Assembly (NCBI GenBank): GCA_016191815.1
Contig: JACPVI010000020.1
Location: 1-64,000 of the forward strand
Reading direction: 5' to 3'
DNA: 64,000 nt
Source: Myxococcales bacterium
GTDB taxonomy: Bacteria > Myxococcota > Myxococcia > Myxococcales > Myxococcaceae
In this document: one piece after another, positions 15,406 through 19,192 of the stretch
How the letters are laid out: every line of letters begins with the position of its first letter
How positions within the stretch are numbered: position 1 is the first letter of the stretch
The notes under the pieces: model-generated
What the model was told of the DNA's origin: nothing
The model's input: only the letters and a program-made list of their open reading frames with translations
The model's database searches: none
Translations under genes and position numbers: made by a program

Positions 15406-15972
15406 CTACTCGCAGCCGAGGCCGCTGAGCGCCTGGTCCAGCTCTCGCTCGTAACGGCCGCCGGGCGCTTCTCTCCGGTGGCGCGCCCAGTGCCGGCAGG
15501 CGCGCTCTCGGTCGCGAAGCTGATACGTGAGGATGGATCCGAGCTCGAAGCTCAGCCGCTCTCGCGTCGCGGATGGAAGCGGCCGCAAGAGTGCGTCCTC
15601 GAGCACTCCCGCCGCCTCGCCGAAGCGCCCGCGGCTCCGCAGAAGCGCGACCGTGGCCAGCACCTGGTCAGCTCCGCTCACCGCGGGAGGCGATGACGGC
15701 AGCGGCCAGATCAGCGTTTGCCCGGGAGCCACCGCCACCTCGCGCCCGTCGGCGGCACGGAAGCGAATGGCCCCCTGGTGCAACGTCACCTCTCCCTCTG
15801 CGTCCCGCTGCACCACCGTGAAGCTCGTGCCCAGGACCTCGATGGCCCCGGCACAGACGTTGACCGAGTAGGGCGTTCGGCGAGAGTGCAGGTGCGTCAC
15901 CTCGATCCTGGCCGACCCGCGAACCAGCTCTGCGCCTGAGGCGACGCGCCGGATGACCGCACCGCCGCTCAC
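15406..15972 (-). CDS. FecR-domain protein, probably truncated at the N-terminus
   Basis: Residues 1-95 match the C-terminal half of a FecR domain: SGGAVIRRVASGAELVRG, then CAGAIEVLGTSFTVV and VAVAPGQTLIWPLP. The remainder is a helical TPR-like tail ending ALSGLGCE. FecR-like proteins are usually membrane-anchored anti-sigma or signalling factors, but here I see neither the N-terminal zinc-finger nor a membrane helix. The frame stays open upstream of GTG 15972 past 16200, without hydrophobic residues, and no sigma-factor gene lies next to it. A decayed gene or a frameshift near 15973-16030 are both possible. Confidence 0.55.
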   Translation of the reverse strand: MSGGAVIRRVASGAELVRGSARIEVTHLHSRRTPYSVNVCAGAIEVLGTSFTVVQRDAEGEVTLHQGAIRFRAADGREVAVAPGQTLIWPLPSSPPAVSGADQVLATVALLRSRGRFGEAAGVLEDALLRPLPSATRERLSFELGSILTYQLRDRERACRHWARHRREAPGGRYERELDQALSGLGCE

Positions 15973-16219
15973 CGATACAGGTCCTCGGCCCAGGCTTGCC
16001 GGCCTGCGCCGTAGCGCAGGCTCCAGCGGTACACCTCGCGCCGGTGCGCTGGCGCTCTGCGGGTGCGCGGGCCTGCCGCCGTTGCGCGACGAAGCGGTCC
16101 GGCCGACGCCGGAGGACGCCCGACCCTGCGAGCACGAGCTTTGCCGGTACTTCGTGCGCCGGGGCCCTCGATCTCCGGTTGGCCGCTGCTCGCTGATGCT
16201 CCCGGAGGCTTTCCGATGA
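15953..16219 (+). other. Possible small Cys-rich ORF or remnant opposite the FecR 5' end
   Basis: In this frame the last 47 codons read like protein: RPTPEDARPCEHELCRYF, then GRCSLMLPEAFR and a stop. The C-x4-C-R-Y pattern followed by C-[AS]-L recalls small myxobacterial sigma-like HTH proteins, but their helix-turn-helix part is missing. The N-terminal half of the frame is unconvincing and overlaps the FecR-like gene on the other strand. I list it as a possible remnant, not as a gene. Confidence 0.2.
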
Positions 16220-16836: not shown

Positions 16837-17603
16837 ATGGGGAAGACGCTCATGGCGGTCCTGCTCGCGCACTCTCTGGCGGGCGCTGAGGTGGGAGCGA
16901 GGTGGGTCGAGTGGACGATCGACGCCAGCGGTCAGATAGGCCAGCACGTGTCGCTGGCGCTCGACGCTCGCGGGAGGCCTCACCTCTGCTACTGCCGGTT
17001 CGTCGGTCCCGCCCGGCGGCAGCTCCGATACGCCCGCTGGACCGGCGAGGAGTGGGCGGTGCAGGTGGTTGACGCGTCGGGCGACGTCTGCGGGATGAGC
17101 TCCCTCGCGCTCGACGGCGCCGGGAAGGCGTGGATCAGCCACTACGACTACTCAAGCCAGAGCTTGAGTAGTCGCGCTGGGTCGGCTCCCGCTGGGAGAC
17201 CGAGGTCGTCGACGGGGAGGAGAGCGTCGGGCTGGACAGCTCGCTCGCGCTGGACAGCCGCGGCGAGCCGCACGTGAGCTACTACGACCTATCGAATCGA
17301 GACCTCAAGTACGCTCACCGCTCCAACGGTGTCTGGTCGATCGAGACGGTGGACGGCTTCGGCGAGGTCGGCCAAGGAACGTCGCTCGCCCTCGATCCCG
17401 CCGGCCACCCCCACGTGAGCGCTCAAGAGCCGGGAGGCGCGCTGAGGTATCTCGAGCGGAACGGAGGGACCTGGAGGATGCTTGAGCTGGAGGGGCTGCG
17501 CGAGGCGGCCTTCAGCGTCGCGCTAGCTCTCCGCGACCGCCACCAGCCCCTCCTGTGCTACTCTGACCTCGCTGAGCACGCCCTGCGCTGCGCTCGCCCC
17601 TGA
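16837..17603 (+). pseudogene. Frameshifted beta-propeller repeat protein
   Basis: Two overlapping frames, 16837-17277 and 17274-17603, together make one secreted protein of repeated units of about 50 residues with the pattern SLALD-x-x-G-x-PH-[IV]-x-Y-[YD]-D...LKYA...W. This is a propeller-type repeat common in Myxococcota and Chloroflexota. A signal peptide (MGKTLMAVLLAHSLAGA) starts the first frame. The frame is lost after YDYSSQSL at about 17164. From 17175 the other frame resumes the unit (RWVGSRWETEVVDG). The junction coincides with a perfect 12-bp palindrome at 17145-17174. The protein is exported if intact; as it stands it is truncated. A sequencing or assembly error is the main alternative. 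Confidence 0.7.
17145..17174. repeat. Perfect 12-bp inverted repeat at the frameshift
   Basis: CGACTACTCAAG (17145-17156) is exactly complementary to CTTGAGTAGTCG (17163-17174), with loop CCAGAG. The right arm replaces the codons expected for LKYA or LRYA of the repeat unit and shortens them by one base. The arrangement looks as if the right arm was copied from the left one. Confidence 0.8.
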
Positions 17604-17678: not shown

Positions 17679-18125
17679 TCACCCGCGAAGGTACTGCTGC
17701 GGAGTCATCAGACGCAGGTTCGTTCGACCAGCGAAGTCTCGCGTATTCCAGGTGACCAGCGTGCTCGTCGGGGGCCGGCAGGTCTCGGCGTGCCAGAGCA
17801 CCGTGGCGTCGCCAGCGCCCATTCTCCGGCTGGCGCGCTCGATGACCGCAGCGACGTCGAATTGGAAGATGCCGGTCGGCCACAAGCGCACGCCGTATCG
17901 AGGGGCGAAGTAGCGCACGAATGCGCGGAGCAGGTGGGGTGGCTGGACGAACGACATCACCCCGGCGACCTCCGCCAGACAGTAGACGCTGGTCACGCCC
18001 ACGCCGCGGCGGCGGATCAAGTCGAGGAATTTGCGGGTGAGCGGCGTCCGCGGATCTTTCGGGTGGGCGACATCGAGCGCGAAAACGACCGAGTCGAGGA
18101 AAACACCTGCTTCCCGCGCGACCAT
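17679..18125 (-). CDS. PIN-domain toxin (VapC-like)
   Basis: The 148-residue protein has the PIN nuclease layout. An early Asp in GVFLDSVVFALD (Asp11) is followed by an acidic residue in YCLAEVAGVM (about 52), by GAGDATVLWHAE (about 104) and by TWNTRDF (about 129). These are the expected metal-binding acidic positions of a ribonuclease. In known systems such toxins cut tRNA or rRNA and are held in check by a co-transcribed antitoxin. Here the Phd/YefM-type antitoxin gene lies just upstream and overlaps by 109 bases. The start is ATG 18125. Confidence 0.8.
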   Translation of the reverse strand: MVAREAGVFLDSVVFALDVAHPKDPRTPLTRKFLDLIRRRGVGVTSVYCLAEVAGVMSFVQPPHLLRAFVRYFAPRYGVRLWPTGIFQFDVAAVIERASRRMGAGDATVLWHAETCRPPTSTLVTWNTRDFAGRTNLRLMTPQQYLRG

Positions 18126-18376
18126 GCGAGGAACTCCTCTGGCGTGAACGGCGGCTGACGGCGCTCCGCGTTCGCGTAGATCTCGCGAAAAATGCGCTCC
18201 ATCTCTTCGTCCTCGCTGCGGAGATCGTCGAATGGGATCAGCGCGGCATACGGCTTGCCGCGCCGGGTGATGATCACACGCTCATGATCGCCGACCGCTC
18301 GCAACGCTTCTCCGGTCTTGTTCTTCAGCTCCCGCGCGCTGATGGTCCTGACTCGACGCTCGCCATATGTAGCCAT
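18017..18376 (-). CDS. Phd/YefM-type antitoxin
   Basis: This protein starts MATYGERRVRTISARELKNK and continues RAVGDHERVIITRRGKPYAALIPFDDL, which is the Phd/YefM DNA-binding fold of a prevent-host-death antitoxin. After the helical segment EEMERIFREIYANAERRQ the sequence PFTPEEFLAWSRG, around residue 80, is where family members usually end. Here the frame runs on for about 35 residues inside the toxin gene, giving 119 residues in all. The extension is serine/arginine-rich and looks like out-of-frame translation of the toxin. I take ATG 18376 as start. The gene probably represses its own promoter through the inverted repeat at 18392-18412. Confidence 0.75.
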   Translation of the reverse strand: MATYGERRVRTISARELKNKTGEALRAVGDHERVIITRRGKPYAALIPFDDLRSEDEEMERIFREIYANAERRQPPFTPEEFLAWSRGKQVFSSTRSFSRSMSPTRKIRGRRSPANSST

Positions 18377-18706: not shown

Positions 18707-19192
18707 ATGGATGCGCTGACCTTCAAGACCGAGCTTGAGGCGGTGCTCGACGCCCTCGCGCGCGAGCGGGTCCCTTTCGCGCTCTGCGGCGGTGTCGCGC
18801 TGGGAGTCCACGGCCTCGTTCGAGCGACCAAGGATTTCGACTTCGTCGTCCCCGAGAAGGACCTCTCGCGCGCGAAGGCGGCCGTGGCAGCAACTGGCTT
18901 CACCTTGCCGGCGGCGCCAATGACGTTCCAGAAAGGCCGGCCGGAGGAGACCGTGGTCCACCGCGTGTCGAAGCCGTTGGGCGACAGCGTGCTGACGGTC
19001 GATTTTCTGCTTGCCCGCGGCTACCTGGCCCAGGTGTTGAAAGGCTGCCAGGAAGTCGAGTGGTCGGGCCGGCGCGTGGCCGTGGCCTCGGCGGCGGATC
19101 TCATTATGATGAAGCGCGTCGCCGACCGACCACAGGATCGCGCCGACATTGCCAGGCTGGAGGCCATACTTCGTGGCGAATCGGAAGAATGA
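18707..19192 (+). CDS. Nucleotidyltransferase-fold protein (DUF6036/MNT-like)
   Basis: The 161-residue protein starts MDALTFKTELEAVLDAL and contains FALCGGVALGVHGLVRATKDFDFVVP at about residues 24-49. This has the glycine-rich turn and R-x-T-x-D-x-D pattern of small nucleotidyltransferases that lack a fused partner domain. A later Asp in VDFLLARGY (about 102) is the third expected carboxylate. Relatives act in toxin-antitoxin or abortive-infection pairs (AbiEii, MNT/HEPN), but others are of unknown role, and no HEPN toxin is seen here. The start is ATG 18707. The next small gene overlaps its end by 20 bases. Confidence 0.7.
   Translation: MDALTFKTELEAVLDALARERVPFALCGGVALGVHGLVRATKDFDFVVPEKDLSRAKAAVAATGFTLPAAPMTFQKGRPEETVVHRVSKPLGDSVLTVDFLLARGYLAQVLKGCQEVEWSGRRVAVASAADLIMMKRVADRPQDRADIARLEAILRGESEE

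Follow-up and report, generated by a model that had tools for sequence, protein, structure and literature searches.

A perfect inverted repeat (positions 17145-17174) that coincides with the frame change of a Myxococcaceae propeller gene appears to have been left by a single short-range template switch, i.e., a quasipalindrome correction, a reading to which we assign a probability of about 0.84 on the basis of sequence comparison. The repeat lies in the window, the whole stretch of 64,000 nucleotides that was analysed, which is part of a 97,920-bp contig in a draft genome of 6.77 Mb and 89 contigs. It can be written as CGACTACTCAAGC-CAGA-GCTTGAGTAGTCG, with 13-bp arms that are 100% complementary and a 4-nt loop; the initial annotation was right in calling it perfect and had given it 12-bp arms and a 6-base loop, the same structure being in fact one pair longer. 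No longer perfect hairpin with a loop of 3-12 nt occurs in the window. A sample of 442 kb from this genome yielded nine perfect short-loop hairpins with arms of at least 11 bp, among which this one is the longest and has the arms lowest in G+C. The positions of the palindrome parts, of the two parts of the gene and of the neighbouring remnants are collected in Table 1.

Table 1. Features at and around the frame change of the propeller gene (positions in the window).
Feature	Position	Strand	Basis
FecR-type gene without its N-terminal part	15406-15972	-	PF04773, E 5.5e-7; matches the L042 homologue (287 aa) over residues 102-285
ECF sigma factor remnant adjoining the FecR-type gene	15978-16049	-	24 aa, 71% identity, E 2e-7, to L042:9982-10548
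Propeller gene, 5' part, original frame	16837-17166	+	P0001 translation; 60% / 44% identity to L003 / L004; GC3 0.90
Palindrome left arm, putative template	17145-17157	+	Codon-by-codon alignment with the orthologues
Palindrome loop CAGA	17158-17161	+	Within the conserved CAG AGC (Gln-Ser), orientation unchanged
Palindrome right arm, putative copy	17162-17174	+	17164-17174 (11 nt) against 12 nt in the orthologues, giving the frameshift
TAG stop of the downstream frame, within the right arm	17169-17171	+	Frame reading of the sequence
Propeller gene, 3' part, shifted frame	17175-17603	+	P0002; 62% and 57% identity to the orthologues, one in-frame gap; GC3 0.86

The propeller gene (16837-17603, plus strand) is one protein encoded in two frames, and two intact orthologues, each a single ORF, were found in Myxococcaceae/Myxococcales metagenome-assembled genomes, namely L003 in genome G017 (369 aa) and L004 in genome G035 (351 aa). 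FecR-type homologues lie near both of them, about 2-3 kb off in G017 and about 7 kb in G035, and a homologue of the outer-membrane-type upstream neighbour of the window gene lies near the G017 copy; this locus-wide comparison of neighbours was made by filtered tblastx, the unfiltered run being dominated by G+C-rich noise. As for closer orthologues, a scan of GTDB genome contigs with P0002 gave no match, a search with the three-sequence alignment gave two contigs only, apparently those of the two orthologues, and the 98 relatives and 96 family genomes included no genome of the same genus. The G017 protein carries the Pfam domain BNR_4, and the predicted structure of the L004 protein is all-beta (29 strands and no helix, pLDDT 85, pTM 0.85), with PLL/PHL lectins as its best PDB matches (E 1e-13, TM about 0.67) and sialidases also matched, so that the label of propeller gene given in the initial annotation proved correct. 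PLL/PHL lectins are seven-bladed. Seven four-stranded blades are likewise found in the model, by which the intact protein is predicted to be a seven-bladed beta-propeller with a BNR_4-like or PLL-lectin-like fold. The product of the gene is secreted.

Reading from the ATG at 16837, frame 0 encodes propeller sequence through AGC-TTG (17161-17166), and the propeller resumes at CGC TGG (17175) in a shifted frame, one base short compared to the orthologues. The frame therefore changes inside the right arm, in agreement with the earlier claim that frameshift and palindrome coincide. The window matches the orthologues codon by codon through GAC TAC TCA AGC CAG AGC, and at the site itself both orthologues encode Q-S-L-[KR]-L-A-R without the hairpin; no hairpin of at least 5 bp is present at the orthologous site in either of them. 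The 12 nt used by the orthologues for L-[KR]-L-A correspond in the window to the 11 nt TTGAGTAGTCG, all of which fall within the reverse complement of the left arm. The right arm had been proposed to stand in the place of L-[KR]-Y-A and to be one base shorter; its position and length were confirmed, the residues were not, since the orthologues have L-[KR]-L-A. On each side the flanks align to the orthologues without gaps over 120 nt, at 62-75% identity, whereas the right arm shares only 4-6 of 11 positions with them even when a gap is allowed, compared with 8 of 12 between the two orthologues over the same interval. The left arm is identical to the orthologues at 6-8 of 13 positions and contains the rare codon TCA. 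The prediction that orthologues would be intact and free of the palindrome thus held for two sequences, both in frame, from which the right-arm interval diverges while both flanks align; they are, however, too distant for dating the changes.

The right arm is also far from what the gene would be expected to encode there. In frame 0 it holds two AGT codons in tandem, a codon used only 16 times among the 15,842 that the clear genes of the window contain (1.0 per 1000). All back-translations of L-[RK]-[LY]-A-R are at least three edits away from the observed bases, or two if the alanine was already a serine, and with weighting by codon usage the mean distance from the expected coding sequence to the right arm is 5.7-7.3 edits. 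One copy from the left arm explains why the interval is shorter, why its bases differ and why the arms pair perfectly, and this argues for a single template switch. Quasipalindrome correction is recognised where the mutation lies in an inverted repeat with near-perfect or perfect arms and a short spacer, where the other arm predicts all the changed bases and where colinear flanks bound a local replacement; the locus shows 13 of 13 paired bases around a 4-nt spacer, 11 replaced nucleotides all contained in the arm, and gapless flanks of 120 nt with an identical CAG AGC. The initial annotation had suggested this mechanism, and it is supported by the intact non-palindromic orthologues, the colinear flanks and the several edits that separate the right arm from the expected coding sequence. 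An inversion of the loop was considered and rejected, because both orthologues share CAG AGC with the window in the same orientation, which points to arm correction and not to spacer inversion.

The proposed event would have started from a partial inverted repeat around CAG AGC. Once the growing strand had extended through the left arm and the loop into the start of the right arm, it would have folded back on itself, and the polymerase would have taken the left arm as template over up to about 11 bases; after unfolding, the strand would have rejoined its proper template near CGCTGG with its register shifted by one base. That a single event took place is inferred, as is the ancestral sequence, whose right arm was deduced from orthologues at about 60% protein identity. 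The left arm most likely served as template, with copying from left to right, because it is the right arm that holds the frame defect, the codon register being preserved in the left; some doubt on the direction of copying comes from the divergence of the left arm itself, including its rare TCA.

The strongest remaining rival is an assembly or library artefact, in which a hairpin chimera or a draft consensus error would have made both the palindrome and the frameshift. Hairpins are trouble spots in sequencing, and the genome is a draft in many contigs. The contig is, however, otherwise clean, with 32 ORFs of at least 200 aa that have high GC3, the longest of about 5 kb, which indicates that the assembly is not error-rich. 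Moreover, a chimera would not normally be limited to 11 swapped bases followed again by colinear sequence, and the locus shows independent decay (loss of two blades and the neighbouring remnant), so that we consider an artefact unlikely.

The complementary arms could also be explained by chance, through a separate one-base deletion and several substitutions in a decaying gene, where substitutions and indels are to be expected because the loss of blades indicates a gene probably under relaxed selection. Against this, the GC3 of the two parts (Table 1) is still high, a sign that little neutral drift has accumulated. In simulations of a deletion with random substitutions (0 to 0.75 per site) the full 13-bp arm arose in at most 2 of 400,000 runs, and 13-bp hairpins are expected by chance at a mean of 0.07 per 64 kb, i.e., per window (30 dinucleotide shuffles). 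This makes an origin by chance quite improbable.

A functional hairpin that directs programmed -1 ribosomal frameshifting, or the production of the two parts as separate, coupled proteins, would be in line with the strong fold of the 70 nt at the hairpin (minimum free energy -35.6 kcal/mol, z -4.3) and with the overlap of the TGA at 17275 with a GTG of the downstream frame at 17274 (GTGA, 17274-17277), a pattern of coupled genes that here is probably due to chance. No XXXYYYN slippery heptamer is present in 16837-17290, and the downstream frame is closed by a TAG within the right arm, so that a slip would need to come after the hairpin and not before it; a programmed -1 frameshift site was rejected on these two grounds. 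Two separate proteins would split a blade, while the orthologues are single ORFs, which renders a coupled design unlikely. A function of the hairpin in either form is therefore very improbable. Near the hairpin neither a terminator-like tail nor a promoter-like site was found, and the lack of such a tail led us to reject a terminator. Lastly, many bacteria carry short hairpin repeats, and the insertion of a small mobile or repetitive element was weighed; it can hardly account for the palindrome and is refuted in the main by the fact that one base was lost and no length gained; the palindrome is also single-copy in the genome even when up to three mismatches are allowed, and the window gave no match in Rfam.

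The template switch that we favour has well described counterparts, and the mechanism is already known from laboratory bacteria and yeast, the window offering a tidy natural instance. In quasipalindrome-associated template switching of Escherichia coli the nascent strand serves the polymerase as template and the quasipalindrome becomes perfect or more perfect (PMC7202029). At the E. coli thyA hotspot and in lacZ QP reporters (Dutra and Lovett, 2006; Klaric et al., 2020, PMC7202029), as here, an imperfect repeat becomes perfect with a frameshift through intramolecular copying of an arm; there the mutation was observed directly in the laboratory, whereas in the window it is deduced from a fixed genome sequence and breaks a gene. 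The quasipalindrome correction model of Ripley (1982) and the genome-level argument of van Noort et al. (2003), as they are relayed in PMC10434271 and PMC6649704, likewise tie a frameshift to the perfecting of an inverted repeat; they provide a model and a genome-level argument, whereas the window provides one case with intact orthologues. In yeast coding DNA, Abraham and Hazkani-Covo (2021, PMC8604942) report nonsynonymous substitutions due to template switching, placed on a strain phylogeny, and describe, like the present case, arm homogenisation that leads to a multinucleotide change in a coding gene. The yeast changes reported there are nonsynonymous substitutions, while that of the window is a one-base loss that gives a pseudogene and is compared with distant orthologues only.

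Ordinary annotation would record a one-base frameshift at this site, whereas about a dozen bases were probably replaced in a single step. Events of this kind bear on the reconstruction of mutation rates and of pseudogene histories, and the case suggests a simple screen in which the frame changes of pseudogenes are searched for perfect hairpins; the propeller gene itself has no special importance. It seems doubtful that pseudogenes commonly arise by short-range template switching in G+C-rich myxobacteria, with this locus as one recent case among many annotated as plain frameshifts.

The frameshift leaves a pseudogene, since frame 0 meets a stop at 17275-17277, which cuts off the final part of the protein. 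Its GC3 (0.90 and 0.86 in the 5' and 3' parts, respectively) remains near that of the orthologues (0.92-0.93), suggesting that the gene was probably coding until recently. The cluster is decaying and carries at least three lesions, the frameshift among them. The 3' part lacks about 92 aa, corresponding to two blades, in frame near 17370 (17360-17400) and at in-phase repeats; given that both orthologues keep these blades, their loss by recombination between the repeats is likely. Upstream, the FecR-type gene is truncated and a 24-residue sigma factor remnant adjoins it, whereas in the G017 locus the ECF sigma factor gene precedes FecR; a deletion has thus probably removed the beginning of FecR along with the greater part of the sigma factor and joined the two.

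Just downstream of the propeller gene, a toxin-antitoxin-like pair was observed on the minus strand (17679-18376), comprising a Phd/YefM antitoxin (PF02604, E 3e-11) and a 148-aa ORF that has no Pfam match and could be a PIN-type partner judging by position only. Further on, 18707-19192 holds a weak nucleotidyltransferase or AbiEii-like ORF, with matches to PF14907 (E 2e-4) and PF08843 (E 3e-4) that are under the curated cut-offs.
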